33,132 nucleotides of DNA. Source: a virus. Location of the stretch: positions 1 to 33,132 of the IMG/VR virus record IMGVR_UViG_3300008216_000044; one strand, given 5' to 3'. Below the pieces are notes generated by a model. The model was given only the letters and a program-made list of their open reading frames with translations, was not told the origin of the DNA and did not search any database. Positions 4,660-32,538 of the stretch are shown piece after piece; position 1 is the stretch's first letter; every line of letters starts with the position of its first letter. The translations under genes were made by a program, and so were the position numbers.

Positions 4660-5222
4660 CCATCACCCCCCGCCGTGGCGATCGCCTCGGCCGCGGCGTC
4701 CGTGGCCCCGAACAGCCAGCCCAGCAGCAGCCAGGTGCCGATCACGCCGAGCGCGGTGAGGAACCGCGACGGCCGCTGCACCACGTAGGCCAGCGCGTAG
4801 GCGAGCACCGTCACGGGCACGGCCAGGAGCCAGCCGTAGGCCCGGCCGAGGAACTCCAGGGCGGGGTGCCGCTCCCCGGGGACCACGGCCCCGTCACGGA
4901 CCCAGGCGACGACGTCGGCGACGGTGGCCGGGCCGACCCGCCAGAACGACCGGTGCCCGGCCTGCCCAGTCTCCTCGCGCACGGCGGCCTCGGCGTGGAC
5001 GTAGCGGGTGTGCCGCTCCCCCCGGTCGAGCTCGTCGGAGACGCCGCGGGCGATGGGCACCCGGAGCGCATCCCACAGCGCCGCGGCGGCCTCGCGCGTG
5101 TACGCGCGCGTGCACGTCCGCGCGCGAGGCTCCTCGTCCGGGGGGTCCTCCCCCGTTGCCGTTGCCGTTGCCGGTCGTGCCGGCTGCCAGGTCGGCGGCC
5201 GGTCGTGCTCGGTGGTGGTCAT
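4656..5222 (-). CDS. Membrane protein with cytoplasmic N-terminal domain
   Basis: 188 residues from the ATG at 5222, which overlaps the previous TGA. An upstream in-frame extension exists but is a shadow of the neighbouring gene. A disordered N-terminus includes an alternating Ala/Thr run made by tandem 6-bp repeats. A helical domain follows (about 40-115: TREAAAALWDALRVP, FWRVGPATVADVVAWVRDG), then two hydrophobic helices near the end (AYGWLLAVPVTVLAYALAYVV and FLTALGVIGTWLLLGWLFG). Nucleotides 5093-5116 form a 24-nt run of strictly alternating pyrimidine and purine. Function unknown; presumed part of the membrane complex around the translocase. Confidence 0.65.
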   Translation of the reverse strand: MTTTEHDRPPTWQPARPATATATGEDPPDEEPRARTCTRAYTREAAAALWDALRVPIARGVSDELDRGERHTRYVHAEAAVREETGQAGHRSFWRVGPATVADVVAWVRDGAVVPGERHPALEFLGRAYGWLLAVPVTVLAYALAYVVQRPSRFLTALGVIGTWLLLGWLFGATDAAAEAIATAGGDG

Positions 5223-5461
5223 GTCATCTGCTCCAGCTCTCTGATCTGGCGGTCCATCTGCTCCAGTGCGGTCGCGGCGGCCTGCTCGGCCGCGGCGGCG
5301 GGGGCGTGTCGGATGGCGGCTCCGAGGTGGAGGGCCCGCACCCGGATCGCGTCCCAAGGGGTCTGTGCGGCGGCGACGAGGTCGTCGTAGTAGCGGCGGC
5401 GGCGGTGCGCGGCGGCGAGGGCGCCGATCGCCTTTCCGGCCTTGACCCTCCGTCCGGGCAT
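5219..5461 (-). CDS. Small basic, helical protein
   Basis: 80 residues from the ATG at 5461, behind a strong AGGAGG site. The N-terminal half is basic (GRRVKAGK, AAHRRRRYYDD) and the C-terminal half is an Ala/Glu/Gln helix likely to form a coiled coil (EQAAATALEQMDRQIRELEQ). It has no membrane segment and overlaps the next gene by 4 nt (ATGA). Such small basic coiled-coil proteins can be nucleic-acid or partner-binding adaptors; no family was recognised. Confidence 0.65.
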   Translation of the reverse strand: MPGRRVKAGKAIGALAAAHRRRRYYDDLVAAAQTPWDAIRVRALHLGAAIRHAPAAAAEQAAATALEQMDRQIRELEQMT

Positions 5462-5470
5462 TCTGACCTC

Positions 5471-5695
5471 CTATTCCGTCAATACATAGAGGCCGACGGA
5501 TTGCCCGTTACTTGTTTCTACGTGCATTTCGTATTCGGCGATTCCGCCGCGGCCGTCGCGGGCTGCGGCGTCCCGGAGGACCCGCCCGAGCAGCTGCTCG
5601 TGATCACCGGCGCCGAGGTCGACGTGCGTGATCAGCTCAGCGCCGGCGGGGTAGCCCCGGAACGCGAGGCGGCAGCGCACCAGCTCGGCGGCCAT
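5471..5695 (-). CDS. Small unknown soluble protein
   Basis: 74 residues from the ATG at 5695, overlapping the previous stop (TGATG). The sequence alternates strand-like and helix-like parts (RCRLAFRGYPAGAEL, EYEMHVETSNGQSVGLYVLTE) and has no hydrophobic segment. The last 40 bases use A/T-rich codons (TTG, ACG, GAA, TAT-type) unlike the neighbours. No family recognised. It is the second gene of the minus-strand operon, just before the strong ribosome site of the next gene. Confidence 0.6.
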   Translation of the reverse strand: MAAELVRCRLAFRGYPAGAELITHVDLGAGDHEQLLGRVLRDAAARDGRGGIAEYEMHVETSNGQSVGLYVLTE

Positions 5696-5913
5696 CACGA
5701 CCTCCGCACGCGCGTGTGGACCTCGCCGAGCAGCGTCCCGGCCCCCACGGCGGCCGCCGTCCCGACCAGCTGCACGAGCGCCGGGGGATGGCCGTGCAGC
5801 CCCAGCCCGAGGCCGTAGGCGAGTACGACCAGGGCGACGGCAACGAGCCCCACCTGCACGCCGGCGAGCACGCGCGTAGAGCGCACCCCAGCGTCTGACC
5901 TCGATCCGGGCAT
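5695..5913 (-). CDS. Two-helix membrane protein, first gene of the transfer-type operon
   Basis: 72 residues from the ATG at 5913, preceded by CAGGAGGT at good spacing. Two hydrophobic segments (about 17-37, VQVGLVAVALVVLAYGLGLG; about 45-62, ALVQLVGTAAAVGAGTLLG) are flanked by basic residues, suggesting a hairpin in the membrane with both ends in the cytoplasm. It follows a promoter candidate and a structured leader at 5945-6040, so it probably begins the operon that ends with the TraB/FtsK-like gene. Function unknown. Confidence 0.65.
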   Translation of the reverse strand: MPGSRSDAGVRSTRVLAGVQVGLVAVALVVLAYGLGLGLHGHPPALVQLVGTAAAVGAGTLLGEVHTRVRRS

Positions 5914-5944
5914 GGCGAGTAGACCTCCTGGCCTGTGTTGGATT

Positions 5945-6004
5945 TCGGCCGCCCGCCGCGCCGGGCGGGGAGGGGGCCCCCGGTGAGCTGCGGCGGGCGG
6001 CCGA
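5945..6004 (-). promoter_or_regulatory. Stem-loop at the predicted 5' end of the transfer-operon mRNA
   Basis: Perfect 15-bp inverted repeat, arms 5945-5959 and 5990-6004, with an inner G/C-rich loop that can pair further (a GGGGGCCCCC core). It begins about 7 nt after the -10 candidate at 6012-6017, where transcription would be expected to start. It may stabilise the mRNA or attenuate transcription. Confidence 0.5.
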
Positions 6005-6011
6005 TGCCAGC

Positions 6012-6040
6012 ACTATGCACGCCTGAGGTGAATAAGTCCA
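6012..6040 (-). promoter_or_regulatory. Promoter candidate for the minus-strand transfer operon
   Basis: Read on the minus strand: -35 TGGACT (6035-6040), 17-nt spacer, -10 CATAGT (6012-6017). The 9-bp operator arm at 6025-6033 lies inside the spacer, where a bound protein would block RNA polymerase. Assigned by eye. Confidence 0.45.
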
Positions 6041-6101
6041 GCCGCGACACGACACGCCCCCACCTGGGCGATGCTGCTCGACACGCACCGCCATTCACCT
6101 C
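6025..6101. promoter_or_regulatory. Inverted 9-bp operator pair between divergent operons
   Basis: GAGGTGAAT at 6025-6033 and its exact reverse complement ATTCACCTC at 6093-6101, with 59 nt between them. Each arm touches one of the two divergent promoter candidates. A likely ligand is one of the regulators encoded just downstream (6980-7840 or 7907-8269); this is inference. Confidence 0.5.
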
Positions 6102-6105
6102 TAGG

Positions 6106-6135
6106 TTGACTGCCGCCCGCCCGGCCGGGGACACT
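6106..6135 (+). promoter_or_regulatory. Promoter candidate for the plus-strand regulator operon
   Basis: -35 TTGACT (6106-6111), 18-nt spacer, weak -10 GACACT (6130-6135), upstream of the ATG at 6173. The right operator arm ends 4 nt before the -35. Assigned by eye; the -10 is poor. Confidence 0.35.
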
Positions 6136-6172
6136 CCGCAGGTCGCACCGCCGATCGGGAGGGGAAGCCCCG

Positions 6173-6391
6173 ATGGACCACACGCCCGCCGTCGAGATCG
6201 AGACCTACGTGACCACCGCCGACTGCTCCGACCGCGTCCAGTGCCCCTCCGGGCACCGGGTCAACGTCATGCCCGGGGGCCGGGTCGTGCAGGGCAAGCG
6301 CATCCCCGATGCCGTCCGCGCCGCGCTCGTCGAGCTGGGCATGCCCGCCGCCGAGGACGCGGTGTGGATTCCCGACGGGCTGGAGGTGTGA
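6173..6391 (+). CDS. Small unknown protein heading the regulator operon
   Basis: 72 residues from the ATG at 6173, behind GGGAGGGGA. Predicted short strands are followed by a helix (IPDAVRAALVELG). It has two cysteines (DCSDRVQCPSGH), a spacing that could hold a metal but is not diagnostic. It is first in a plus-strand operon with a DUF6879-like gene 1 nt downstream and an XRE regulator after that. No family was recognised; small acidic partners of this kind are common beside DUF5753 regulators in actinomycetes. Confidence 0.6.
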   Translation: MDHTPAVEIETYVTTADCSDRVQCPSGHRVNVMPGGRVVQGKRIPDAVRAALVELGMPAAEDAVWIPDGLEV

Positions 6392-6392
6392 G

Positions 6393-6977
6393 GTGACCCA
6401 GCAGCAGCACCGAGAGCTGGACGCGGCCGGGATCGGCCGGTTCTTCGCCGACCACTACCGCAGCGCCGGCGACACCCTGTTCCGACTCGAGACCCTGCCC
6501 GGCTACGACGTCACCGACGACGGCCCGAACTGGCGACTCTGGCAGGAGGGCGCGGCCGAGCCGGACCCGGCGTGGAAGGAGCCGTGGCTGGACACGCTCC
6601 GCCGCGAGCACCGTGCCGGCCTGCGCGCGTCCCGCGTGCGGATCTTCGGCAAGCACCTCACCGACTACGAGCGGTTCGAGTGCCACTTCGGCTACGCGCT
6701 CAACGGCCCGGCCGGGGAGGAGATCGGCGTCCTCCGAGCCGGGGAGCACGCCATCCCGGGCGACCTCATCGTCCAGGACTTCTGGCTGGTCAACGACGCG
6801 CACGTGATCGTCATGCGCTACGACGAGGCCGGACGGTTCCTCCGCGGGGACCTCCTCGACGACGACGCCGCACCCCGGTACGTCGCCACCCGTCGCGCCG
6901 CCCAGCTCGCCGCCGAGCCCTTCGACACCTGGTGGGCACGGCACCCCGAGCTCCACCGCAGGTCCGCGGCGGCCTGA
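6393..6977 (+). CDS. DUF6879-like protein
   Basis: 194 residues from a GTG at 6393, 1 nt after the previous stop. The sequence has the features I remember for the DUF6879 family of actinomycetes: an early FRLETLPGYDV block, WLDTLRREHRAG, a YERFECHFGY motif near the middle, DFWLVNDAHVIVMRYDE, and a C-terminal WWARHPEL. The biochemical role is unknown. Members typically stand next to XRE-type regulators with DUF5753, exactly as here, which suggests a partner or effector of that regulator. The family name is given from memory. Confidence 0.75.
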   Translation: MTQQQHRELDAAGIGRFFADHYRSAGDTLFRLETLPGYDVTDDGPNWRLWQEGAAEPDPAWKEPWLDTLRREHRAGLRASRVRIFGKHLTDYERFECHFGYALNGPAGEEIGVLRAGEHAIPGDLIVQDFWLVNDAHVIVMRYDEAGRFLRGDLLDDDAAPRYVATRRAAQLAAEPFDTWWARHPELHRRSAAA

Positions 6978-6979
6978 CG

Positions 6980-7840
6980 TTGACGCGCGGCCGAGGAGCA
7001 GCGGCGAGCAGTCCGGACGACCTGTCCCGACTGCTCGTCGCCATCCGCACCACCGACCGCGCCGACCGTGGCCTCCGCCCCCTGTCTCAGCACGCTGCCG
7101 GCCAGCTCGCCGCCCACTTCCTCGACGGCCGCCCGCTGTCGCAGGCCCGGGTGTCGCGCGCGGAGAACGGCACCCACCCCTTGTCCCCGGCCGAGGCCGA
7201 CGCCTACGCCCGCGGCTGCCAGGCCAGCGCCGAGCGTCGCCGCGAACTTGTCGACCTGGTCCGCGTGTTCGCTCCCGAGGCCGTCACCAGCCGCGCCGTG
7301 CTGGTCCGCCGTCCCCACCTCATCCAGGCCAGGATTGGCCGCCTCGAAGCGGAGTCGACGCTGATCCGGTCCTGGCAGGACGCGATCGTCCCGGGGATGC
7401 TGCAGACCCCGGCCTGGACCGCCGCGGCGTTCGGCGACCCGGGCCCGGAGTGGTGGGAAGCCCGGGAACGCCGGCTCGCCCTGCTCGCCGACCGGGATCG
7501 GTCGTGGCACTTCGTGCTGTCCGAGGCTGCGCTCCGCTGGAACCTCGGGGCCGAGGTCATGGCCGAGCAGCTGGACCACCTCGCCGCGGTGATCACCCAG
7601 CACCCGCACGTGCAGGTCGGGGTCGTCCCGCTCGCCTCGCCGAAGACGGCCGTCGCCTCGGGACCGTTCCGGCTCTACGGCCGCCGCACGGTCGAGGTGT
7701 CGACCCCGTCGGGAACCTACTTCGACTCCGACCCGGGCGAGGTCACCGCCTACGAACAGCGCTTCGACTTCGTCGACGAGATCGCCGCCTACGACGAGGA
7801 CGCGCTGATGTTGGTCGCTGCGCTGCGGCGCGCCCTCTGA
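6980..7840 (+). CDS. XRE-family helix-turn-helix regulator with DUF5753-like domain
   Basis: 286 residues if the TTG at 6980 (2 nt after the previous stop) is the start; no better in-frame ATG/GTG is near. About residues 10-90 hold a helix-turn-helix region (RPLSQARVSRAENG, SPAEADAYARG) with the LSQ..VSR.E pattern of XRE repressors. The remaining two thirds match DUF5753: SWQDAIVPGMLQT, WWEARERRLALL, HFVLSEAALRW, VGVVPLAS, and the terminal DEDALMLVAALR. Regulators of this type act in Streptomyces development and in accessory loci. Here it is a candidate switch for the mobile element and may bind the operator pair at 6025-6101 (inference). Confidence 0.8.
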   Translation: MTRGRGAAASSPDDLSRLLVAIRTTDRADRGLRPLSQHAAGQLAAHFLDGRPLSQARVSRAENGTHPLSPAEADAYARGCQASAERRRELVDLVRVFAPEAVTSRAVLVRRPHLIQARIGRLEAESTLIRSWQDAIVPGMLQTPAWTAAAFGDPGPEWWEARERRLALLADRDRSWHFVLSEAALRWNLGAEVMAEQLDHLAAVITQHPHVQVGVVPLASPKTAVASGPFRLYGRRTVEVSTPSGTYFDSDPGEVTAYEQRFDFVDEIAAYDEDALMLVAALRRAL

Positions 7841-7842
7841 CG

Positions 7843-7871
7843 TTCCGTTCCGCGTCCGGCACAGCTATGGT
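7843..7871 (+). promoter_or_regulatory. Internal promoter candidate before the small DNA-binding-like gene
   Basis: -35 TTCCGT (7843-7848), 17-nt spacer, -10 TATGGT (7866-7871), directly followed by an imperfect palindrome GGTTACCGGAACC (7869-7881) that could be an operator. The next start is the ATG at 7907. Confidence 0.4.
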
Positions 7872-7906
7872 TACCGGAACCCCGTTACTGCGTGAAGGAG
7901 ACGGCC

Positions 7907-8269
7907 ATGCCCCCGGGTCTGCCCCTGCCCAGCCGCGCGCCGTCCTCGGCGGCGGCCGCGCTGCTGCGCGCCGTGCAGGACTTCGCCGCCCCCACGGCTG
8001 GCTCGATCGAGGACGACCTGCAGCGCGTGTCGGACCTGCGGCACCTCGTGATCGTCGCGGAAGCGGCGTGGGAGGAAGCCCTCGTCCACGCCCGGGAGTC
8101 CCTGCGCAGCGACGGCGCGCTCGGCGACCGAGTGGTCGAGAACCCCACCGGAGGGGTCGGCCGGCTGCGGCGCGACACCGGGATCGCCCTGTCGACCCTC
8201 CAGGACCGCATGGGCAAGGGGCGTGGACGGCAGATCGAGGCCCGGCGGCGCGAGGCGTTCCCCGCGTAG
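7907..8269 (+). CDS. Small protein with a possible helix-turn-helix
   Basis: 120 residues from the ATG at 7907, preceded by AAGGAGA; an in-frame GTG at 7892 covers that site and is less likely. The N-terminal half is helical and acidic (SIEDDLQRVSDLRHLVIVAEAAWEEAL type). The C-terminal part (LRRDTGIALSTLQDRMGKGRGR) reads like a helix-turn-helix with a basic recognition helix. It is last in the plus-strand operon, with its own promoter candidate and a strong terminator 13 nt after the stop. A DNA-binding accessory role is plausible but unproven. Confidence 0.6.
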   Translation: MPPGLPLPSRAPSSAAAALLRAVQDFAAPTAGSIEDDLQRVSDLRHLVIVAEAAWEEALVHARESLRSDGALGDRVVENPTGGVGRLRRDTGIALSTLQDRMGKGRGRQIEARRREAFPA

Positions 8270-8281
8270 GCGCAACGCCCA

Positions 8282-8336
8282 CAACGCACCGACGGGCCCG
8301 CCACCTCTACCCAGGTGGCGGGCCCCGTCGGCGTTG
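8282..8336. terminator. Strong bidirectional terminator
   Basis: Core stem 8291-8306 with 8313-8329 (16 bp, one bulged C, 6-nt loop), extended outward by partial pairing of 8282-8290 with 8330-8336. It sits between the convergent stops at 8269 (+) and 8346 (-) and can serve both transcripts. Confidence 0.8.
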
Positions 8337-8345
8337 CACCGCCGG

Positions 8346-8897
8346 TCAGTCCGCTGACAGCCCGAGCTCCACGACCCGCGCGAGGAACGCCGACCGCGAC
8401 GGCACACCCAGCTCCTCGGCGCGACCGTCGAGCACCTCCAGTTCCTCGTCGGTGAGCCGTAGCTGAACCGACGAGGACGCCTCCGACCTGGCGCGCACCA
8501 CCCGGGTACGCGGAGGCAGCGACGACCGTCGCGGCGCCGGCGGGGCGAAGTGGTCCTGCAGCTCCCCGTCGAGCCGGTCGAAGGTGTCGAGCAGCCACTC
8601 CGTGAGGGTGACCCCCGCCCCGTTCGCGGCCCGCTCCATCGCCTCCTTGGTGGTGGCGGCGAGGTAGACCTGCACGGGCCGCTTCCCGCTCGTGCTCGCG
8701 CTCGGCGCTGCCACCTTCGGCGTGCGCCGGCGGGGGCGGGGACGGTCCTCGCGCGCAGGCCGGTCGCCCGGGGCATGGTCGGGAGCGGGGTCGGGCTGCG
8801 CCGGGATCGGCGAGGGTGCCGCCGCGGCGGGCGGCGGGCGCAGCCCGGTGAGCCCGCCACGCAGGGCCGACAGGTCCCGGGGGTTGGCCGCGTTCAC
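8346..8897 (-). CDS. Ribbon-helix-helix partition protein (ParB role)
   Basis: 183 residues from a GTG at 8897 that overlaps the parA stop (GTGA-type overlap). The first 60 residues are Pro/Ala/Arg-rich and disordered, a region that in ParB-like partners often contacts the ATPase. Two ribbon-helix-helix-like blocks follow: about 72-110 (KRPVQVYLAATTKEAMERAAN, then TLTEWLLDTFDRL) and 141-180 (SSVQLRLTDEELEVLD, then SRSAFLARVVELGL). Position directly downstream of parA and the repeat-rich region upstream of parA fit a type Ib-like partition system in which this protein binds the centromere and represses the operon. The double motif is unusual. It is not a classical HTH/CTPase ParB. Confidence 0.8.
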   Translation of the reverse strand: MNAANPRDLSALRGGLTGLRPPPAAAAPSPIPAQPDPAPDHAPGDRPAREDRPRPRRRTPKVAAPSASTSGKRPVQVYLAATTKEAMERAANGAGVTLTEWLLDTFDRLDGELQDHFAPPAPRRSSLPPRTRVVRARSEASSSVQLRLTDEELEVLDGRAEELGVPSRSAFLARVVELGLSAD

Positions 8898-9829
8898 GCC
8901 GGCACCGCCGTCATCGCCCCGATCCGCTGCGTGACCTCCTCGGCGAGCCGGTAGTAGTCCCCGGCCAGGTGCGGGGCACTCGTGGCGAGGGCCTGCGTCG
9001 CCGCCACCGACTCCGGATCGGGCCGGTGCTGCCCGCCGCCGCCGCGGCCGCGAGCGGCGCGGAGCATCTGGAACCGCAACTTCCGCGCCTCGGGCAGCTC
9101 GGCCTCGATCTCGTGTACCAGCTTCCCGAGGCGCCGGCAGTCCTGAGCCGGTCCCTCGACGTGACGAATCTCGGTGTCGAACGTCAGGCCGGGACCGAGG
9201 TCCCGGTCGATCTGCTTGCGGGCGGTCTCGGCGATCCGGCGCGAGCGCGCCCCGATCCCGAACAGCACCACCCCCAGCAACTCCAGGTGCGGGTTGTCCC
9301 CGCCCTTGACGTGCGTGAACAGCTTGGCGACCTGGACCAGCCCGTCGAGACTCGCGTCGTCGGCCTTCGTGGGCACCACGACGAACCGTGCCGCGGTGAG
9401 CGCCATCTGCTGCAGCGCCCGGTTCCCCGGCGGGCAGTCGATCAACACGAGGTCGTAGTCCGCGGCGATCGTGGCGAGGGCGTCGTTCACCGCACCGTTG
9501 ACGCTCTGCCCTCGGGTCCCCCGTGAGTAGAGGGTCGCGGCCATATCCTCGACCAGCTCGCCGCCGGGGATGACGTCGAGGTTGGGCCGGACCTCGCGCA
9601 GCGGCTCCAGCGGGGCCCCGGCGGTCACCGCGGCGAACAGTGCTCGGCCCCCGTCGCCGCGGCCGTCGTCGACGTAGCCGAGGTCCCGGCCCAGGTTGCC
9701 CTGCGGGTCCATGTCGGCGATGAGGACCCGATAGTCGGCCTTGGCGAACAGTCCGCCGATGTTGGCCGTGATGCTCGTCTTCCCGGTCCCGCCCTTGCCG
9801 TTGATCACGGCGATGGCTTGGTGCAGCAT
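8894..9829 (-). CDS. parA: ParA-family partition ATPase
   Basis: 311 residues from the ATG at 9829 behind AGGGAG. It has the deviant Walker A KGGTGKTS (12-19), Walker A' DMDPQGN (39-45) and Walker B LVLIDCPPG (about 130-138), all canonical for ParA/Soj ATPases that segregate low-copy DNA by nucleoid gradients. There is no N-terminal helix-turn-helix extension, so it is the short (Ib-like) type. The C-terminal 60 residues include a Gly/Arg-rich insert (ARGRGGGGQHR) before a final helix. It is cotranscribed with the ribbon-helix-helix protein, and the putative centromere lies immediately upstream. This indicates that the element is, or was, maintained as a plasmid. Confidence 0.93.
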   Translation of the reverse strand: MLHQAIAVINGKGGTGKTSITANIGGLFAKADYRVLIADMDPQGNLGRDLGYVDDGRGDGGRALFAAVTAGAPLEPLREVRPNLDVIPGGELVEDMAATLYSRGTRGQSVNGAVNDALATIAADYDLVLIDCPPGNRALQQMALTAARFVVVPTKADDASLDGLVQVAKLFTHVKGGDNPHLELLGVVLFGIGARSRRIAETARKQIDRDLGPGLTFDTEIRHVEGPAQDCRRLGKLVHEIEAELPEARKLRFQMLRAARGRGGGGQHRPDPESVAATQALATSAPHLAGDYYRLAEEVTQRIGAMTAVPA

Positions 9830-9830
9830 C

Positions 9831-10140
9831 CGTGCTCCCTGCGTGCTCTATGCGTGTGCCCGGCTGCCTGCCCGGGTGCTCAACCGGTGCGGGCTGCATG
9901 GGGGGTGCGTGCTCCGTGCTCAGTGGTAGCGCGCAGCACGCACGGTAGCAGCGGGCAGCCTCCGGGCATCGCGCGTGTCGGGTGCGTGTCGCACGCTGGC
10001 CGCCCGCGTTGCGCATGCCGCCTGCCTGCGTTGTGCAGTCGGTCAGCACCGATGCTGCGCGGGTGCTAGCTACCCGCTGGTGGTGTGTGGCAAGCCCGCT
10101 GCACGCTGGCAGCACGCAAGTAGCGGTTGCCGTGCATGCG
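9831..10140. repeat. Iteron-rich region upstream of parA: putative centromere (parS/parC) and operator
   Basis: Exact TGCGTGCT occurs at 9840-9847 and 9906-9913, and its reverse complement AGCACGCA at 9935-9942 and 10111-10118. Shorter relatives are scattered between (CGTGCTC at 9831 and 9915, TGCGTGTG at 9851, GGGTGCTC at 9874, and a GTGCG...CGCAC inverted pair at 9982-9995). No gene is evident here. Direct and inverted short repeats next to a ParA plus ribbon-helix-helix pair are the normal form of such centromeres. The first copies overlap the parA leader, so autoregulation is likely. Confidence 0.65.
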
Positions 10141-10303
10141 CCCTGCAAGCCTTATTCGGCCCGATCCGGGGTCGTGGGCCGCCCCGGATAGGGCCGGAAC
10201 CGGCCGCTGGTCGTCCCGGTGCCGAACGAACACCCGCTCCCCGGTGGAACGGGACCCTCGGAACCGGCACAGGGCAAATGAGGGCCGATCCCGGGAACGA
10301 CGA
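10141..10303. other. Noncoding spacer between putative centromere and late-operon terminator
   Basis: I see no convincing gene, promoter or iteron here. Some short G/C palindromes occur (for example GGCCGGAACCGGCC around 10192-10205), but none is strong enough to assign. With 9831-10140 and the terminator it completes the only gene-free stretch longer than 300 bases in the window. Confidence 0.4.
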
Positions 10304-10345
10304 ATGCCCCCGGCGGACCCGCCGAAGCGGGCCCGCCGGGGGCAT
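10304..10345 (-). terminator. Terminator at the end of the virion operon
   Basis: Outer 13-bp stem (10304-10316 with 10333-10345), single mismatched bases, inner 5-bp stem (10318-10322 with 10327-10331) and a CGAA tetraloop. It begins 6 nt after the stop of the minus-strand repeat protein. Confidence 0.85.
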
Positions 10346-10351
10346 CCAGCA

Positions 10352-13300
10352 CTACGGAGACGCGACCAGCTCGCGGGAGGACACGTCATCGACCCGCGCT
10401 GCACTCGACACCGACACGTCGTCGACGCGAGAGACGGCCCCCGCGGTGAGGTCGTCGACCCGCCTCGCGCGCACCTGCCACGGCAGCCGCCACGAGTCCG
10501 GGCCACGCACCGCACCGCCCGAGCCGACCCCGGACGCGCTACCCACGCCCGCGCCGACCGCCGGCCGAGGCGCCTCCGCCGTGCCCGTCCCGGTCGCCGA
10601 CCCCGGGTAGACGACCACGGCGGCACCGACCGGCCCGGCCACACCGGTACCGATCGCCTGCCCGGCGAGGACCTGCCGGTCGTCCTGCGACACGAGCTGC
10701 GACGCCGCGCCCGCGGCGAGCGCGGTCCCGGCGCGAGCCGCCACCACCGAACCGGCCGGTTCCGCCGACCCTGCCCCGGACGCGGTCCCCGCCGGCGACC
10801 AGACCCGCCCGGACACCTCGCCCGCCGTGCCGGTTCCGGCCGCGGTGCCGGCCACGGCCAGCACCACCCCGACCCCGTCGGGCACGGGCGCCTCGCCCGA
10901 CCCGAACGCCGTTCCGGCGACCGCCGACACCGCGGCGGTCACCGCACCCGCTGTGCCGGTGCCGCGCGCCGTCGGGCCGACGACCTCGCCCGGGCGGATC
11001 GCTGTCGGCTGCGGCGCGGAGCCGACGCCGCTCGCCGTCGCGGCGAGCACCTCGAGCGCGGCCGTCGCCTCACCGGCCTGACCGACACCGGCGGCTGTGG
11101 CGGCCGTACCGGCGAGGTCGGCCCGAACTGCCCCGGCCGTGCCGGCACCGTGCGCGGTGGCGGCCTGCGCCGTCACCGCCGCGGACGCCGCCCCGGCCGT
11201 GCCCGCCCCGGCGGCGGTAGCGGCCCCGGTCGTGACCGCCACCGTCGGTGCGTGGGCCTGGCCGGACCCGGTCGCAACGGCCGCCGGGGCGTCGCGCACG
11301 GCCACGAGCTCGGCCGTGGGGCTGTGCGCGGTGCCGGCGCCTTCCGCGGCCCCGACCGGCGCCATGACCGTCGCGGCCACGGTCGAGGCGCTGCCCACAC
11401 CGGCCGCGGTCCCGGCCTGCGCGGTGACCGCGGCCGTCACCGGCCCGGCCTCGCCGGCCCCGGCCGCGGTGCCAGGTGTCCGGGAAAGCGACGTCGACGC
11501 CGTGACCGGTCCGGCCGTGCCGACGCCCTCTGCGCTGTCGGGGGCGGCCACGGTTACCGCGTCCGCCCCGACGGGCCCGCCCGAGCCGACCCCGGTCGCG
11601 GTCCCGGCTCGCGCCTGCACCGCAGCCGCCACCGGCCCGGCCGTCCCGGCACCCTCAGCGGTGCCGGGGGAGCGGGACAGCGACGTCGACGCGGTTCCCG
11701 GCCCGGCGGTACCTGCACCGGCCGCGTTCCCGGCCTGGGCCTGGACCGACCCCGACGGTGCGGCGGCGGACCCCTGCCCGTCGGCCGACCCCGGCCGGGC
11801 CGACACGACCGCCGCGGCATCGCCCGCAGTGCCGGAGCCCGTCGCCGTCGCGGCGGTGGCCGTGACCGCTGCCGCCACCGGCCCGGCGGTGCCGGAACCG
11901 GTAGCCGACGGCACCGATGGTGCCGCCGTCGAGGTCGCCGTGACCTGCCCGGCCGTGCCGGTACCGGCCGCCGTAGCGGCCTGCCCTGAGACGGCCCCGA
12001 CGGTCACACCGGCTGTCCCGGTGCCCGCGGCCGCCCCTGCGGCTGTGGCGATCGCCGCGGCGGCGGCGTCCGCGGACCCGACACCGGCGGCCGTGCCCGC
12101 AGCGGGTTGCAGGGACGGTCGTACCTGCTCGGCTGTGCCGGTGCCCTGCGCGGTCTCGACGGCCCGGGTGATCGCTGCCTGCGTCACGCCGGCGGTGCCG
12201 GTCCCCTCAGCGGTCCCGGCGAGCGCGTAGACGGTGGCGACGCCCTCGGCCGAGGCGCCCCCGCCCGATCCTCCGCCGGACGCGGTGCCCGCGTTCGGAG
12301 CGACGATCGGCGCGGCGGCCCCGGCCGTGCCGGCGCCCGTCGCGGTCGCGGCGGTGCGCGCAATCGCCGCAGACACCTCGCCGGCCGTCCCTGCACCGGA
12401 CGCGGTGCCAGCCGGGGCGCGCTTGTCGATCGCCGCCGTGGGCGCGCCCGCGCTGCCCGACCCGGATGCGGTCCCGGCCCGGGCGGCGACGTGCCCGCCG
12501 ACCGGCCCGGCAGACCCGGACCCGGACGCGGTGCCGGGTGTCCGGGCGAGCGACGTCGACGCGGTGACCGGCCCGGCCGTGCCGGTGCCGGTCGCGGTGC
12601 CAGGGGTGCGCGCGAGCGACGTCGACGCGGACACCGCGCCCGCGGCGCCTGTACCGGAGGCGGCCCCGGCGGCGGGTGCGGCCGACGCCGTGACCGGCCC
12701 GGCGGTGCCGGTGCCCGTCGCGGACGGGGCGGCGCGGGAGACCGACGCCGCCACTGGCCCGGCCGTCCCGGACCCGGATGCGGTCCCGGGACGGGCAGTG
12801 ACCGCCGCGGTGGGCTGCCCGGCCGTACCGGCACCTGTCGCCGCAGCCGCGGTCTTCCTGACGGCGCCGGCGGCTGCCCCGGCAGTACCGGTGCCCGTTG
12901 CCGTTGCCGGAGTCCGGGCGAGCGATGCCGCCACCGGCCCGGCGGTGCCGGTGCCGGTCGCGTTGGCCGGGCGTGCCGTGACCGATCCCGTCGCCGCCCC
13001 GGCCGATCCCGTACCGGCCGCGGTTCCCGCCGTCGCGTTCGTGACTGGGGGAGGGACGTAGTCGGCGACGGTCAGCCCGTACTTGTCCTGAAGGTACGAG
13101 TGGACAGTCGCCCGCTCCCCGGCTGTGAGGACGCGGGAGTAGACGATGAGCTCGGCAAGGTCACCCTGCAGGTACTCGTCGGTGCCCTCCAGGTCGATAC
13201 CGATGATCGTGGTGAGGCCGCTGCTGATCGCCCGGCCACCGCCGGTGCCGGCGGCCGCGCCCGCGATGTAGAGCGACGTCGCGGAGGTGGTGTGCGAGGC

Positions 13301-13723
13301 CGTCAGGACGTGGAAGTTCGTCGTGTTGACCGTGCCGGTCGCGTCGACGCGGAACCCGGTGTTCTGCCAGCTCAGGGCCGGGCGACTCGCCCGGACCTGG
13401 AAGATGACGCCGTTAGTGCCCGAGGTCGACCGGATCGGCTCGATGGCCCGGCCGCCGTGCTTGACGACGGCGAAGATCGTTTCGTTGGGCAGTCCGGAGT
13501 TCGCCCCGGACAGCATGTAGTCGCCGCCCGCGAATCGGACCGCAGGCTTGCCGTTGATCGCGTTGGTAACGAACGACGGGCGGAGCGCGCTGCTTGACTG
13601 CGTCGCGTTGTAGCCCAACCCGCCTGAGTCCGGCCAGGTCGCGACCTCCGCGCCGTTGGCGAGCGCGAGCGAGTCCGCGCGCCACCAGGCGTGCAGGTCG
13701 GAGATCGAACTCGGATCAGCCAT
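10352..13723 (-). CDS. Giant tail-type protein: LamG-like domain plus about 41 Gly/Thr/Ala repeats
   Basis: 1123 residues from the ATG at 13723, behind AGAGGAGGGG. Residues 1-228 form a LamG/concanavalin-like jelly roll (DLHAWWRADSL, VATWPDSGG, KPAVRFAGGDYML, LAELIVYSRVLTAGERA). About 229-1052 are roughly 41 degenerate units, mostly 20-22 residues, with consensus A-x-G-x-G-T-A-G-x-V-x-A-x-V and ending in GT or AT. The C-terminal tail repeats RVDD three times. I recall comparable GTGTA-type repeats in minor tail proteins of actinophages, so an adhesin or side-fibre role in host binding is likely. It is the last gene of the virion operon but is set off by strong hairpins on both sides, so it may be expressed at its own level. 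A secreted host-type surface protein is an alternative. Confidence 0.75.
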   Translation of the reverse strand: MADPSSISDLHAWWRADSLALANGAEVATWPDSGGLGYNATQSSSALRPSFVTNAINGKPAVRFAGGDYMLSGANSGLPNETIFAVVKHGGRAIEPIRSTSGTNGVIFQVRASRPALSWQNTGFRVDATGTVNTTNFHVLTASHTTSATSLYIAGAAAGTGGGRAISSGLTTIIGIDLEGTDEYLQGDLAELIVYSRVLTAGERATVHSYLQDKYGLTVADYVPPPVTNATAGTAAGTGSAGAATGSVTARPANATGTGTAGPVAASLARTPATATGTGTAGAAAGAVRKTAAAATGAGTAGQPTAAVTARPGTASGSGTAGPVAASVSRAAPSATGTGTAGPVTASAAPAAGAASGTGAAGAVSASTSLARTPGTATGTGTAGPVTASTSLARTPGTASGSGSAGPVGGHVAARAGTASGSGSAGAPTAAIDKRAPAGTASGAGTAGEVSAAIARTAATATGAGTAGAAAPIVAPNAGTASGGGSGGGASAEGVATVYALAGTAEGTGTAGVTQAAITRAVETAQGTGTAEQVRPSLQPAAGTAAGVGSADAAAAAIATAAGAAAGTGTAGVTVGAVSGQAATAAGTGTAGQVTATSTAAPSVPSATGSGTAGPVAAAVTATAATATGSGTAGDAAAVVSARPGSADGQGSAAAPSGSVQAQAGNAAGAGTAGPGTASTSLSRSPGTAEGAGTAGPVAAAVQARAGTATGVGSGGPVGADAVTVAAPDSAEGVGTAGPVTASTSLSRTPGTAAGAGEAGPVTAAVTAQAGTAAGVGSASTVAATVMAPVGAAEGAGTAHSPTAELVAVRDAPAAVATGSGQAHAPTVAVTTGAATAAGAGTAGAASAAVTAQAATAHGAGTAGAVRADLAGTAATAAGVGQAGEATAALEVLAATASGVGSAPQPTAIRPGEVVGPTARGTGTAGAVTAAVSAVAGTAFGSGEAPVPDGVGVVLAVAGTAAGTGTAGEVSGRVWSPAGTASGAGSAEPAGSVVAARAGTALAAGAASQLVSQDDRQVLAGQAIGTGVAGPVGAAVVVYPGSATGTGTAEAPRPAVGAGVGSASGVGSGGAVRGPDSWRLPWQVRARRVDDLTAGAVSRVDDVSVSSAARVDDVSSRELVASP
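10510..13040 (-). repeat. Coding array of about 41 units, 60-66 bp each
   Basis: The DNA encoding the repeat part of the 1123-residue protein. Units keep phase at the protein level (core GxGTAG) while third-codon positions and the variable half differ, so this is an old, diversified array and not a recent expansion. One subset with the insertion STSLARTPGT or STSLSRTPGT recurs (near units 7, 8, 22 and 25), suggesting internal duplication of multi-unit blocks. Confidence 0.75.
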
Positions 13724-13817: not shown

Positions 13818-14285
13818 TCAGAGGGTGATCCGCGCGATGCCCGTCGCGGCCCACACGACGGTGAACGTTCCGGCCGTGACGGACTGCTCCCCGCCGAAGG
13901 CGTTGAAGCACACGCCGTACTTCGAGCCCGCGGCCGGGGTGTCGTTGTAGACCGTCACCCCGGTGACCGCGGTCAGGGTCGCGTTCGCCCCGGACGCCCT
14001 GTCGTCGGCGTCGAGGAAGCACACCGCGGCCGTGCCCTGGTTGATCTGCTTGTTCGCGAGGAGCTGCCCACCGGCGGGCCAGTCGGTGCTGGAGGACTTC
14101 TCCGACGCGACCAGCCAGGTGCCGGCGTTGTAGGAGGTCTGCGCGAGGACGGCGTCCTGGGCGGGGGTGACCCCGTCGCCCCAGAGCGCCGCCTTCATGT
14201 TGTTGGTGAGGAAGTCGAGCGTGCCGGCGCCCCACAGGTCGCCGATGTGCGCGCGGAAAATCTCGGAAGCGGTGCCGAAGGCCAT
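13818..14285 (-). CDS. Small phage structural protein, probably tail associated
   Basis: 155 residues from the ATG at 14285, behind CAGGAGAG. Pattern: FLTNNMKAALWGDG near the N-terminus, a long middle with AVCFLDADD, TLTAVTGVTVYNDT, and a C-terminal GTFTVVWAATGIARITL. From memory this arrangement (a short helix followed by beta structure ending in 'G.F.I.W...GI..I') occurs in many siphophage proteins encoded among minor tail genes. Exact virion position unknown. It is the last gene before the strong hairpin at 13755-13802. Confidence 0.65.
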   Translation of the reverse strand: MAFGTASEIFRAHIGDLWGAGTLDFLTNNMKAALWGDGVTPAQDAVLAQTSYNAGTWLVASEKSSSTDWPAGGQLLANKQINQGTAAVCFLDADDRASGANATLTAVTGVTVYNDTPAAGSKYGVCFNAFGGEQSVTAGTFTVVWAATGIARITL

Positions 14286-14688: not shown

Positions 14689-15012
14689 TCAGGAGGTGAT
14701 GCGGGCCCGCGCGGTCGGGGCGAAGACCGCGCAGTCCTGCCCGTCGTCGCGGGTGACCACCACCGACATGACCGGCCGCCCGTTGTGGAGCTGCACCAGC
14801 TCGTTGCCGATGTAGTCCTCCCGCTCCCGGGCCTCGACCTTCGCCCGGGTGCCCGCGGGCACCATCGGCGAGGTGAGCCCGCCGCGGAGCCCGCGGCAGG
14901 GGTGGAACGGGGTGTGCGGCGCGGTCTCGCGGGTCACGTGGGTGTGGTCGCAGTTCGGGCACTCCCACCGGTGTTCCGGCGGGTCGATCAGCACGGCGCG
15001 GGACATGGACAT
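14689..15012 (-). CDS. Phage protein with a zinc-ribbon-like N-terminus
   Basis: 107 residues from the ATG at 15012 (a second ATG is at 15006), with GAGGTGG at good distance. The N-terminal third has CPNC, then HTHV and HPCRG, possible zinc ligands of a small ribbon. The C-terminal half looks beta-rich (GRPVMSVVVTRDDGQ, CAVFAP). No family name can be given. It follows two hairpins downstream of the holin gene and probably forms a small late unit with the coiled-coil gene after it. Confidence 0.55.
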   Translation of the reverse strand: MSMSRAVLIDPPEHRWECPNCDHTHVTRETAPHTPFHPCRGLRGGLTSPMVPAGTRAKVEAREREDYIGNELVQLHNGRPVMSVVVTRDDGQDCAVFAPTARARITS

Positions 15013-20172: not shown

Positions 20173-22689
20173 CTAATACACCGGCACGGCGGTCGTCCCG
20201 AGCGCCCCGGCCGTCGACGACCCCAACACCCAGGCCCGATCCACCCACACCGGAGACAGCTCCCAGATCGACTCCCACGTGCCGGCCGCAACGTTCACGT
20301 CCTGCGTGATCGACTCGATGTAGAAGTCGGCCGAGAACATCGGCCCGACCCGTGGGCGCCGGCGGATCGTGACGCGGAGCCCGATCTCGGCGGCCAGCAC
20401 GATCGGCCACAGCTCCGGCTTGGAGTCCGGGCGCAGCACCAGCCGCTCGCACCGCATCCGAGGCGCCGCGTACCGGCGTCGCCGGTAGGTCGCGGCCTGT
20501 TCCAGTTCGAAGTCGTCGAGCACGTCGAGGGTGAGCGACAGCGTGCGTTGGCCGATCTCGTCCTCGATCGCGGCGTCGACGACCTCCAACGGCCCCGACC
20601 GGCCGGGCCGGGACAGTCTGACCCGCGAGAACACGTAGCGCGGGTCGTAGTCGAGCCGCAGGTCCTCGTAGGGCAGTTCCCCGGCGGCCTCGCCGAACAC
20701 CCAGCCCGTGCGCACGCCGTCGAGGTGTCGGGCAACGGAGGTCTCCACCACGACCTCGCCGTCGCGGGCCGCGTACACGATCCCGTCGGCGGTGGCGGCG
20801 AGCGCCTCCAAGGCCGCGAGGGCCGACCCCCCGATCTGCTCGTGATCGGCGGCCAGCGGCGCCGAGGCCGAGTCCACGGGGACGCGCCGGGCCCCGCCCG
20901 GGTACACCCGGTCCAGAATGCGGAGCGCCCGCTGGTCGGGCGCCTCACCGAGGTACCCGACCCCGCGCTGGTAGTGGGCGCGCAACCGGGCGCTCGGCAG
21001 CCGTGTCGGGTAGAACCCGACACGGGCGACGCTCACCTTGGACAGCGGGTTCCCGTTGCGGGTCAACGCGGAAATGTTGATCGAGTTGATTCCGTAGTCG
21101 GTGATCGGCAGCGGAATCCCGGCCAGGGCGCCGTCTTCACGTACGCTCGCATCGAACCTGTAGGCGGCCTTCCAGTTGCCCGGAACGGCGGGGTCCGGCT
21201 CGAACGAGATAGCGAAGTAGTGCCATTGCCCGTCGTCGAGATAGGCGTCGGTGATGACAAAGTCCTCCGCGGCCGGGTACCCGTAGAGCAGCCCTGGCAG
21301 GTTCACCGCGAGATAGGACCGGGCGTAGTTGTAGAACATCAGCCCGAACCACTGATCACCGCTGGTCGGTTCCAGGTAGTTGCCCGAGGTGATCGACTGG
21401 AACACGATTCGCGCGACCGATGCGTCGATCTTCGCCCAGAACTCGATGGTCGCCGCGCCGGTGTTCAGGGTGAACAGCGTCGGGCCCCACCCGGTCGCGT
21501 TGCGCGTGTCGAGGGAGGTCACCTGGCCCGCGTAGTCCAGGTCCGCCGGGTTCTGCCGTTCCTGCGACAGCGTCACGGCCGGGGTCCCGTCGGGCAGGGT
21601 GTCCCCGCGCCAGGCGATCGTCCCGCCCTTGGACGGCAGGAACTCCCGCATGCGCACGGTGCCCGCGAGCCGCCCCTGCGCCCGGCCGGGACCGGTCGCG
21701 TCATCGAACGGCAGCCACAGCGACGGGTCGTCGCCGGCGATCTCGGCCTCGTAGGTGTCGTCCAGCACGGTGCGGGACAGCACCGACAGCGCGTCGACGA
21801 GCTCCAACGGCCGCTGGCCCCGGAACCCCCGGTCCACCCACCGCTGCGGGTAGCGCTCGATGAACCCGGTCCACACCGGCCAGAACACCGGGCCCGAGGT
21901 CGTGAAGGCCGAGGGGGTGGCGACCCCGTACTCGACCTGCTCGTCGTCGAGGAACACCTGCAGGGTCCCCGACCCGCCGGTCACGACCAGCGACAGCGGC
22001 GTGCGCAGCCCGGTCGCCATGACCGTGGCCGACACCCTGGTCCAGCCGCCGCCCGACACCGCGGTCCCCGACAGCACCCCGCCGAGGTTGAACCGCGCGC
22101 TCACCCCGGAGGTCGTCACCCGCAGGTACGCGCTGTAGGTGATCAACGTTCCGGGGATCGACCACGGCCCCCAGTGCTCTCCGTTCGGGCCGACCCAGGC
22201 CCGCGCGGTCGCAGACGGCCCGGTGAGGAGGAAGTTCAGGCACCGCGTCCCCGACCGCGGGGTGATCGTCGAGCTTGCGACCGTGCCGGCCCCCGTCGCG
22301 TCCCACCCGTTCACCCCGCCGTTCTCGAGTCCCGGGTGTGTCGTCCCGCCGTAGGTCCCGGCCTGGATCGCGTTCCCTGGGGTGTCCGGCCCGGGCCACC
22401 ACGCCCGCACCTGAGCCGCCCGGTACAGCGCGAGCTTGTTCGTCCCGGAGTTCAGCGGCGAGGACGTGTTGCTCGGGTTGAGGGTCTCCTGCGGGTCCTC
22501 GACGGTGATCGAGCACGTCCCGGCCTCAACCTGCCCCAGCTCGTAGGACCGGCCACGCGAGCACGAGAACCCGCCGATCGACCGCCCGTGCCCTTCGTCC
22601 AGCCTGACCGAGGTCAGCCCGTCCGGCCGCGCCGGCGGGCCGTGCTCGAAGTCGCCGAGCACGACCACCTTGGGCAGGTTCGATGCCAC
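20173..22689 (-). CDS. Large minor tail protein (distal tail/tail-tip) with LamG-like insert
   Basis: 838 residues from the GTG at 22689, with a G-rich ribosome site just after the tape-measure stop. The first 100 residues (VVVLGDFEHG, IGGFSCSRGRSYELGQVEAG, ITVEDPQETLNPSN) match the opening of actinophage tail-tip proteins encoded after the tape measure. About 400-560 contain a LamG-type jelly roll (ATIEFWAKID, DGQWHYFAISFEPD). The last third (EDLRLDYDPRYVFSRVRLSRPG, ESITQDVNVAAGTWESIWELSPV) resembles the baseplate hub/Tal-like part. It probably combines roles that other phages split between distal tail and tail-associated proteins; the LamG part may bind host glycans (inference). Confidence 0.82.
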   Translation of the reverse strand: MASNLPKVVVLGDFEHGPPARPDGLTSVRLDEGHGRSIGGFSCSRGRSYELGQVEAGTCSITVEDPQETLNPSNTSSPLNSGTNKLALYRAAQVRAWWPGPDTPGNAIQAGTYGGTTHPGLENGGVNGWDATGAGTVASSTITPRSGTRCLNFLLTGPSATARAWVGPNGEHWGPWSIPGTLITYSAYLRVTTSGVSARFNLGGVLSGTAVSGGGWTRVSATVMATGLRTPLSLVVTGGSGTLQVFLDDEQVEYGVATPSAFTTSGPVFWPVWTGFIERYPQRWVDRGFRGQRPLELVDALSVLSRTVLDDTYEAEIAGDDPSLWLPFDDATGPGRAQGRLAGTVRMREFLPSKGGTIAWRGDTLPDGTPAVTLSQERQNPADLDYAGQVTSLDTRNATGWGPTLFTLNTGAATIEFWAKIDASVARIVFQSITSGNYLEPTSGDQWFGLMFYNYARSYLAVNLPGLLYGYPAAEDFVITDAYLDDGQWHYFAISFEPDPAVPGNWKAAYRFDASVREDGALAGIPLPITDYGINSINISALTRNGNPLSKVSVARVGFYPTRLPSARLRAHYQRGVGYLGEAPDQRALRILDRVYPGGARRVPVDSASAPLAADHEQIGGSALAALEALAATADGIVYAARDGEVVVETSVARHLDGVRTGWVFGEAAGELPYEDLRLDYDPRYVFSRVRLSRPGRSGPLEVVDAAIEDEIGQRTLSLTLDVLDDFELEQAATYRRRRYAAPRMRCERLVLRPDSKPELWPIVLAAEIGLRVTIRRRPRVGPMFSADFYIESITQDVNVAAGTWESIWELSPVWVDRAWVLGSSTAGALGTTAVPVY

Positions 22690-22693
22690 AGGA

Positions 22694-25600
22694 TCACCCC
22701 CCGGAGAGACCGGCGTTGACGTTGCGACCGGCGTAGCGCGCGGTCGCCTTCCGCACGAGTTCGAGGAGGTCCCGCTCGGCGACGACCGTGCCGCCCACCT
22801 CGAAGTGGTTGTGCACCTCGTTGACGATCGCCCGGGCGACCCCACCGAGGACGCTCGCCAGGGTCGACGGGGCGAACCCGGCCGAACCCGGCGCGCTGAT
22901 CCGGGCCTGAATGTCCCCGCCCAACTGCGCGCGAGCGGCCTGCATCGCCGCCCGCGCCGAGGCGATGACCCCGGGGGTGCCCTTGCGCAGGGACTCCTCG
23001 AAGTCGCCCATCAGCGCGATGCCGGAGTACGTGACGTACCCGCGACCGGAGAACGGCCCGGTCTTGGCCGGGCTGAACGGCCACAGCGCGCGCAGCTGCG
23101 CCATGCCGCGACGGACCCAATCGACCATCTGGTTCCAGCGCGACACGATGCCGTTCCAGAACCCGGAGACCAGCGAGACCCCGGACTGCCACAGGTTCGT
23201 GTTCAGGATCGCGCGGATGATGCTCCCGGGCAGGTCGCGGGCCCACTGGATGAGCTGACGGCCCCGCTCTGCCGCCCCGGCAACCATCCCGGCGAACCAC
23301 TGTCCCGCCCGCGACGGCAGCGTCGCGAACCAGGAGACGAGGTTCTGGATCGTCTGCGACGCCCACTGCCCGGACCCGGTTCGCAGCTCGCCCATGCGCT
23401 GCTGCGCGGTGCGGTAGAGCCCGGCGAAGTGCTCGCCGACCCGCCCCGGCAGCCCGGTGAACCACTCGACGAACCCGTTGACGGCGTCCTGCGCCCACTG
23501 CGGCGCGCCGCGCACGAGCTCCGCGGCACGCCGGCGAGCACCCTCGACGGTCTCGCTCCACCACCGGGACGTGCGCTCGGGCAGGGTGGTGAACCACTCG
23601 ACGAACCCGGCCACGATCTCCGCGCCCCACTGCCCGGTGCCGTCTCGTAGCTCGGCGAGCTTCTGACCGGCGTTCACGCCCGCCTGGGCGAACCAGCCCC
23701 CGACGGCGCCCGGGATGCCCCCGAGCCAGTTCGTGAAGCCGTGCCACACCTCGGCGAGCTTCGCGTTCACGTCGGCGTTGAACTGCGTTCCCCACGCGCC
23801 CACGTCGGCCCGGAGCTGCGTCCACCAGCCCGACACGTCGCCCGGGATGCGGCCGATCCAGTTCTGGAAGGCCTGCCAGTACTGCTGCAGCGGGGTCTCC
23901 CCGCGCTCCCACGTCGCGGACAGCTCCTCGAACTCGGCGCGGATATCGTCGAACGCGGTCGCCGGGTCGGTCATCAGCTGGTTCGCCGCGCCGGTGATGT
24001 TCTTCAACCCGGCGTAGCCCAGGCCGTTGTTGCTGGCCTCCTCCTCCGGGGTGGCCTTGGGCAGGAAGTTGTCGGCCAACGCGAGCCCGGCCAGGCCCGC
24101 GCCCGCGCCGCCGAGGTTGCGCATCAGCCGGCCAGCGGTCCGCAGCCGGGTCGCGAGCCGCCCCAGCCCGGGGATGAGCCGCGCGATGGCCCCGGCGAAC
24201 GACAGGATCAGCCCGAACCGGCTCACCAGCATGAACGCCTTGAAGATGAGGTAGAGCTTGCCCATCTCCAGGATCCACCCCGAGATGTCGTCCTCGTGCT
24301 CGCGCAGGATCGAGACCAGCCACTCCAGCGCCGGCGCCAGCCACTCGGCCGCCGCCCCGGCGAGGTCCATCACCGCGGGGAGGACGATCTCCAGAATCTC
24401 CCCGAGCGCCGACAGGACCCGGCCGAACGAGTCGCCGTGCCGGTCGGCGTAGTCGAGCATCCCGGCGAGCCCTTCGAGCACGCCGCGGAGCAGGTCCGCC
24501 GTACCGCGGGCGATATCCTGGTTCGCCCCGACGTTGACCCACGACTCGGCCAGCCGCAGCGAGCCGTCCCCGAGCGCTTGCACGATCGGGACGGCGTTCC
24601 GCTGCATCCGGTCCAGCTGCTCCTGGAACGCCGGGTCGCGGAACATATCGCCGAACCGCCTGGCGATGATCCCCATTTCCCGGCCGACGAGCCCGATGTT
24701 CTTGCGGAAGATCGGGAACAGCTCCTCGGAGTCCCGGAGCATCTGGGTCAGCCCGGGCAGGAACGCCTCCTGCGCCTCGTCGCGCAGCTCGCGCAACGGC
24801 TCGCCCATCGCGATCAGCTGCTCGACGAACGCCCGACCGGCCGGGGTCAGCTTCTTGAGCGCCTCCTCGTACTTCGAGGACTGCGCGGCGGCGCCGGCGG
24901 CCTGCTCGGCCGCCGAGGCCTGGGCATCGGCGAGCCCCTGCATCGCGTCGGCGACCGCCCGGGCCGCGTCGTCGTTGGACTCCGCGGCCTGCTGCTGGGC
25001 GTCAGCGACCGCGGCGACGGCGTCGGCGACGGACCGGGCATGGTCCTGGGCGGACTCCGCGGCCTGCTCCTGGGCCCGCGTGACGGCGTCGACGGCGTCG
25101 GCGACCGACCGGGCCGCGTCCTCGTTGGCCTCGGCGGCGTCACGGCGAGCGTCGGCGAGCTCGCGCTCAGAATCGGCGACGTCGCGCCCGGCCTCGGCCA
25201 GCGCCTCGCGCGCGTCGGACACCCGCCGCGCGGCGTCGGCCTCGGAGTCGGCGGCGTCCTTCTGGGCACGCTGCAGGTCCCTGGTCGCCTCGGTGGCCTG
25301 CTCCTGGGCCTCGGCGAGCCGTTCCCGCGCGTCGGTGACCTCCTCGGACCCCTCGATGCCCCGCTCCTGGGCGTCGCGGGCGTCGTCGACGGCCCGCGTG
25401 GTGTCCCTCTCGAGTTCGGCCTCCCGCGCGCGGGCGACGTTGAGCTCGTGGAGGGCCCGCATCCGGGACACGTGGGTCGACTCGCTGGAGCGCAGCTCCC
25501 GGTAGTACGCGCGCTCCGCCTCGGCGACGGCGACAGCCGCGCCGAACTGGTCCACTGCGAGCGCGGCGACCCGGTCCTGGAGCTCCTGCATGGTGCGCAG

Positions 25601-29061: not shown

Positions 29062-29345
29062 CGGGACTCCTCGGTGCCGGCGCCGCCGGCGGTGTCGGTG
29101 GGCGCGGTGTCGGTGGGCGCGGGCTGGGATGCGGGCGACCAGTGCGCGGTGTCGGGCGGGCCCTCGGGCCACTCGACGACCTCGCCCGGGGCGACCTCGC
29201 GGCCGAGGGGCATCGGGACGACGGGGTAGGGGCCGCTGAACCGCCACCACCGCGGCGCCGGGGCCGCGGCGGGCTCGACGTCGGGGGTCGGGGTGGGCGG
29301 CTGGTCGGTGCGCGCGCGGGCGCGACCGCTGGAGGTGCTGGACAT
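29058..29345 (-). CDS. Small Pro-rich phage protein
   Basis: 95 residues from the ATG at 29345 (GAGGAG upstream), overlapping the tail tube start by 4 nt. Both ends are disordered and Pro/Thr/Ala-rich; the centre (WWRFSGPYPVVPMPLG, APGEVVEWPEGPPDTAHWSP) looks like a short beta domain. Comparable small proteins with a 'V.PGEVV.WP' core occur near head-tail genes of actinophages, from memory. Function unknown; perhaps a minor head-tail joining part. Confidence 0.55.
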   Translation of the reverse strand: MSSTSSGRARARTDQPPTPTPDVEPAAAPAPRWWRFSGPYPVVPMPLGREVAPGEVVEWPEGPPDTAHWSPASQPAPTDTAPTDTAGGAGTEESR

Positions 29346-32431: not shown

Positions 32432-32466
32432 CAGGGGGTCGTCCTTCCGGGACGGTGTGCACGACA

Positions 32467-32501: not shown

Positions 32502-32538
32502 CGGGTGGTGAGCGGGTGACCATCGCTGCCGTGCGGCA

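Follow-up and report, generated by a model that had tools for sequence, protein, structure and literature searches.

What does a phage use a protein for in which a unit of about 20 mostly small residues is repeated 41 times, and to which part of the particle would such a protein belong? The question is raised by a gene in the window, i.e., the complete stretch of 33,132 bases (positions 1 to 33,132) of the IMG/VR record IMGVR_UViG_3300008216_000044. A longer contig of IMG/VR (56659 bases) contains the same virus, with 99.995% identity across 19369 bases. On the minus strand the genes run from the major head protein via the head-tail adaptor, tail tube, tape measure, and a large distal-tail-type protein to several small genes, the gene of a 155 amino acid protein, the repeat protein, and ParA (Table 1). 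The order of head, tube, and tape measure genes identifies the virus as a long-tailed phage (siphovirus), and the repeat protein gene is the final gene of the structural cluster. Within the tape measure gene tandem repeats of 75 bp and 150 bp are found (24945-25138 and 25793-26102), which possibly reflect tail-length variation. The gene adjoining ParA (8346-8954, minus strand) appears ribbon-helix-helix-like by eye and may encode the ParA partner; the two genes may constitute a partition locus, and the virus may therefore be a phage-plasmid. A tRNA scan detected no tRNA genes.

Table 1. Positions of the features discussed, in the window and in two other phages
Source	Feature	Position	Strand	Remark
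Window	Major head protein	31061-32539	-	phrog_752, E 2.1e-31
Window	Head-tail adaptor	29928-30644	-	
Window	Tail tube protein	28057-29250	-	Pfam Phage_tube_2, E 3.2e-21
Window	Tape measure protein	22694-26662	-	phrog_305, E 1.1e-33, other matches too
Window	Large distal-tail-type protein	20173-22845	-	
Window	PHROG_644 'wing arm' homologue, 155 aa, directly upstream of the repeat gene	13818-14285	-	phrog_644, E 7e-7
Window	Repeat protein (putative appendage), 1123 aa: LamG-like head, 41-unit array, charged C-terminal tail	10352-13723	-	
Window	LamG-like head, about residues 1-225	13049-13723	-	Pfam PF13385
Window	41-unit array, residues 232-1079	10487-13030	-	A4-x-G6-x-G8-x-A10 ... V17
Window	Units 7 and 8, first two copies with the STSL(A/S)R(T/S) insertion, 22 residues each	12539-12670	-	
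Window	C-terminal tail, residues 1080-1123 and stop codon	10352-10486	-	three RVDD(L/V) motifs, read directly
Window	ParA ATPase	8894-9829	-	Pfam AAA_31, E 2.6e-28; phrog_164
MiniFlayer (L013)	Pair gp6, gp8	5186-5620 and 5867-9997		
L043	20-residue array protein	6511-10452	-	tailspike-like gene comes after

The repeat unit, its history and the head domain

From the sequence alone the gene had been read as encoding about 41 strongly diverged copies of a 20-22-residue repeat behind a LamG-like head. Parsing with a position matrix, to which two degenerate units were added by eye, confirmed the tandem repeat as an array of exactly 41 units, but besides 29 units of 20 and ten of 22 residues it also contains two of 24; none has an odd length. 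The regularity of the unit is borne out by this parse and by its invariant positions. In the 20-mers alanine 4, glycine 6, and glycine 8 are present in 29 of 29, alanine 10 in 28 of 29, and a valine, leucine, or isoleucine at position 17 in 27 of 29, positions 5, 7, and 9 being mostly threonine, alanine, or serine. This alternation of small residues, together with the aliphatic residue 17, is a predicted beta-strand pattern. The strict core pattern occurs 21 times, whereas shuffles that preserve the composition contain it 0.07 times on average, and the periodicity score reaches a z of about 16 against shuffles of 60-residue blocks. The composition is 31% alanine, 19% glycine, and 14% threonine.

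The divergence of the units is indeed strong, with a mean nucleotide identity between units of 56% and 85% for the best pair, and Tandem Repeats Finder called only a single stretch of some four units within the array as a DNA repeat (12479-12771, overlapping rows). The STSL insertion is found in four units (7, 8, 22, and 25), and its recurrence had been taken to suggest expansion by block-wise segmental duplication. This was not supported, because copied blocks would leave diagonal runs of matches when units are compared pairwise, and none were seen: the diagonal-run statistic yielded a correlation of 0.04 (p=0.21 versus permuted unit order). The similarity of adjacent units slightly exceeds that of random pairs (p=0.02), as would fit local duplications that took place now and then, with a long period of divergence thereafter.

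The proposed LamG-like domain was recovered as Laminin_G_3 (PF13385) when the head was scanned alone (E 3.3e-9; 37.5 bits versus a Pfam cut-off of 27.6), a match which disappears when the full-length protein is scanned. IMG/VR contig 3300017691_000005 carries a head 38-40% identical to that of the window. In the 132-kb phage contig L003 (7941-9254, plus strand) the 38-40% identical LamG-like head is followed by a different domain, without an array, and head and stalk are therefore separable modules. Long plus strand reading frames which overlie the array (10127-11989 and 12107-13597) are taken as antisense by-products of the high GC content. Whole-protein searches against annotated phages, at the DNA and the protein level, gave no matches, probably due to divergence and low-complexity filtering, and a Pfam scan assigned no family to the array of the window or to those of the relatives scanned.

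The PHROG_644 arm gene and its pairing with repeat arrays

The 155 amino acid protein encoded directly upstream belongs to PHROG_644, a large family with function listed as unknown. It is 39% identical to MiniFlayer gp6 and is found at 2e-14 by a hidden Markov model built from the actinophage group without the window arm. A profile of 19 arm relatives matches a single solved chain, 9d93_Ra 'Tail wing arm, gp31' (E 1.4e-9). PDB entry 9D93 is mycobacteriophage Bxb1 (PMC13243192), the names of its chains (wing arm gp31, wing brush gp33) being taken from the PDB titles. The Bxb1-type arm homologue itself belongs to PHROG_644 (E 2.9e-43), and the model of the Bxb1-type group reaches members of the actinophage group, down to 2e-15. 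As Bxb1-type arms alone reach the window arm with a direct E of 0.5, and significance is obtained only via intermediates or a pooled profile, the relation of the window arm to Bxb1 is transitive and not direct. The AlphaFold2 model of the arm was too poor to use (38.6).

The surroundings of arm genes were examined in two collections. In 14 regions of annotated phages, with strong 18-26-residue periodicity as criterion, all 12 strongly periodic proteins are located one to four genes from an arm homologue. They have periods of 22 (Onyinye gp43, Ronaldo gp62, Jabbawokkie gp28, REQ3 orf59, and F116), 24 (Vasanti gp28, Orchid gp38, BlueNGold gp106, and GodonK gp95 and gp96), 23 (Smooch gp64), and 19 or 38 (EBPR siphovirus gp72). 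No other gene tested in these regions passed, among them several long minor tail proteins, and the arm neighbours in Phrux, MiniFlayer, and a Xanthomonas phage also failed the test. The second collection was obtained from IMG/VR by arm similarity alone, blind to repeats. The best 80 of 423 arm loci were used, which left 59 after dereplication, one of them the window's own virus. Among these a periodic protein is present in 35 of the 41 loci with at least 3 kb downstream, and the best lag (10-34 allowed) is 20 in 33 of 42 cases, 22 in four, 24 in three, and 25 in two. Still among the best 80 of 423 loci, periodic genes are concentrated within 2.5 kb of the arm (36/247 versus 7/198 farther away, Fisher p 7e-5), and none of 120 genes more than 3 kb upstream of it is periodic.

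A two-unit profile from the window scored 51 of 56 periodic proteins from the best 80 of 423 loci above their own shuffles, which argues for a kinship of pattern and not of composition alone; compositionally similar controls overlap in score, so that common descent of the units is unproved. Spacings were counted with steps of 14 up to 31 residues permitted, the units being found from a seed of equal-length copies. Pooled over 49 arrays, 170 steps of 20, 17 of 22, 29 of 24, one of 18, one of 26, and two of 23 residues were obtained. Non-20 steps are thus even in 48 cases and odd in two, counts which are not independent and were obtained with the equal-length seed. Even-only stepping is a strong rule; it is not absolute, since locus L009 has two steps of 21. 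The window itself conforms to it, with its 20/22/24 array beside the arm gene. A pattern scan of bacterial genomes found mostly 5-residue and similar simple repeats, with no convincing array among the 80 loci listed, and in literature searches, within their limits, neither this repeat nor the pairing of arm and array was found described.

Several further loci merit mention on their own. The window (14689-15012, minus strand) and L009 (8269-8664, plus strand) have in common a small gene whose start is CPNC/zinc-ribbon-like and which lies upstream of the arm gene in both. Locus L010 has an array without a PHROG_644 hit, and the place of the arm is taken by a small protein which resembles Pfam 'GP4 fiber I protein gp80'; comparison with the arm family (hhalign E 1e-4, probability 56) is only suggestive of homology. 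In L043, likewise without a PHROG_644 hit, a small protein (10487-10930, minus strand) precedes the 20-residue array protein and resembles PF23140 'Podophage GP4 fiber I protein gp80', with a match (E 9e-6) that narrowly misses the cut-off. A repeat protein with a 25-residue period in L220 (8462-11806, plus strand) contains a catalytic domain of apiosidase-like type (PF13204, E 6e-10), and some of the heads may therefore be enzymes.

A proposed stalk and its possible forms

We consider it reasonably probable that the array forms an extended beta-rich stalk of a virion appendage which is held by the PHROG_644 arm. Assignment to an appendage of the virion, as in the sequence-only reading, is supported by the PHROG_644 neighbour and by the pairing of arms and arrays. 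The 155 amino acid protein would fix the appendage to the particle, like gp31 in the tail wings of Bxb1, and the repeat protein would be its distal part. Its 41 units would build a single long thin stalk with two short strands per 20-residue unit, the first with A/G/G/A pointing to one side and T/S/A to the other, and the second carrying the V/L/I residue. The LamG-like head would be the likely binding end, for a glycan or another surface. Along a beta strand successive residues alternate between its two sides. An odd step would turn the alternating strand pattern inside out, and growth of units by two residues only would account for lengths of 20, 22, and 24 and for odd units being almost lacking. 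The reach of the appendage would be set by copy number: as estimated unit numbers in related phages cover a wide range (about 5 to 47 in the best 80 of 423 loci), the suggested ruler for fibre length is possible.

In an AlphaFold2 model of six units (14 aligned segments as input; pLDDT 44, pTM 0.35) strands were predicted at unit positions 3-10 and 13-15 in each unit, shorter in the last two. These repeated strands agree with the sequence pattern, the fold not being established by them. The unit is regular in its predicted strands, at low confidence, and a low pLDDT would be expected both for an obligate oligomer and for a disordered chain. If three chains were wound together like those of known trimeric phage fibres, with the A/G/G/A face packed at the axis, the poor monomer confidence would be explained, and the low hydrophobic content and the small-residue face would suit a tight symmetric axis. 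The Bxb1 wing brush also has three chains, and the point against such a trimeric shaft is that a search for a familiar trimerisation domain in the C-terminal part recognised none; we regard it as a quite possible form of the stalk, somewhat short of an even chance. The stalk might also be a monomeric beta solenoid with one unit per coil, and the unit length near 20, the two strands per unit, and the even steps fit the geometry of coils. Beta coils rise by about 0.48 nm each, and 41 of them would therefore give a rod of about 20 nm; for a trimeric shaft a length two to three times as great is conceivable. Large hydrophobic residues for the core of a solenoid are almost lacking, the pLDDT is low, and no sequence match to a solved solenoid was found in the PDB, which makes this form rather doubtful.

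Two readings dispense with a beta structure. A low-complexity linker, flexible and for the most part disordered, which would join the LamG head to the virion, is suggested by a pLDDT below 50 across most of the model and by the alanine-, glycine-, and threonine-rich composition; invariant positions and almost even-only lengths in many unrelated phages would be unexpected for such a linker, and we judge it improbable. That the array forms a polyproline II bundle, the structure reported for the brush of the Bxb1 wing, seems very improbable indeed: the repeat protein is glycine-rich and positioned like the brush, but its glycines are at positions 6, 8, and 11 of the 20-mer and not at every third residue, the invariant feature being alternation by two.

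A separate issue is the site of the appendage. The earlier label of a tail-type protein agrees with the arm being a tail-tip part in Bxb1, and it is weakened by the pairs of MiniFlayer and phiCbK, which lie nearer to capsid genes. Together with a further such pair near capsid genes (L015) and the published head-filament candidate gp76 of phiCbK (PMC3556154), they speak for a head or neck filament, to which MiniFlayer gp8 might also belong. As the pair in the window closes the tail gene cluster and gp31 of Bxb1 is assigned to the tail wing in its PDB title, we think a head or neck location unlikely for the window protein, if deserving of attention. Since the pair follows tail genes in the window and adjoins capsid genes in MiniFlayer and phiCbK, it may be a module usable at different sites of the particle.

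The stalk reading, if true, would provide a structural role for PHROG_644. A 20/22/24 even-step array beside a PHROG_644 gene would be a signature for annotating appendage stalks, which are missed by ordinary searches because of low-complexity filters, and the observed range of unit numbers would be a natural stalk-length series for asking whether repeat number controls reach. The PHROG_644 neighbour and the shared 20-residue even-step unit are context beyond what had been noticed in the sequence before.

Comparison with known appendages

The tail wing of Bxb1 resembles the locus in its arm, homologous via PHROG_644, and in a distal wing protein encoded nearby: 'Tail wing brush, gp33', three chains of which are contained in 9D93, is encoded two genes after the arm in Bxb1-type phages. 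It differs in that its glycine-rich domain is reported as polyproline II bundles and not as beta structure (PMC13243192), so that a protein encoded beside an arm is not necessarily built of beta strands. No 20-residue array is visible by eye in the brush homologue, and a search of the window repeat protein against PDB sequences gave no match to 9d93, hence no homology to gp33.

In phiCbK an array-type gene follows the PHROG_644 gene directly (gp243/gp242). Judged by length and description, gp242 (phiCbK_242, 2799 aa) is gp76 of Gill et al., which was named the most probable head filament and was not detected in virions by its authors (PMC3556154). It shares with the window protein a concanavalin-like domain and C-terminal repeats of about 23-24 residues, and differs by its 2799 amino acids, its poly-Gly domains, and its proposed place on the head. 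The satellite phage MiniFlayer attaches to the neck of its helper, and hypothetical proteins beside its tail fibre gene could, according to its authors, form an adsorption module for this neck (PMC10690885). Its gp6 is a PHROG_644 protein, and two genes on gp8 has a LamG-like start and V-x-P-M-x-G-S-G units with a spacing of mostly 22-24, but these units are scattered between other domains, in line with the failed periodicity test. We regard gp6/gp8 as a candidate fibre for attachment to the helper. It may be, and we suggest this tentatively, that an unnamed superfamily of repeats with a fixed unit of 20 residues, growing by two residues only, is the standard stalk of PHROG_644-anchored appendages in many phages, including the phiCbK candidate and the possible helper-holding protein of MiniFlayer, with copy number setting the reach. 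Minor tail proteins of Gordonia and Mycobacterium phages (phrog_7114, phrog_553, and phrog_416), in which the units are more hydrophobic and the array is often N-terminal with another domain at the C-terminus, resemble the protein of the window in having arrays of 22- or 24-residue units which adjoin PHROG_644.
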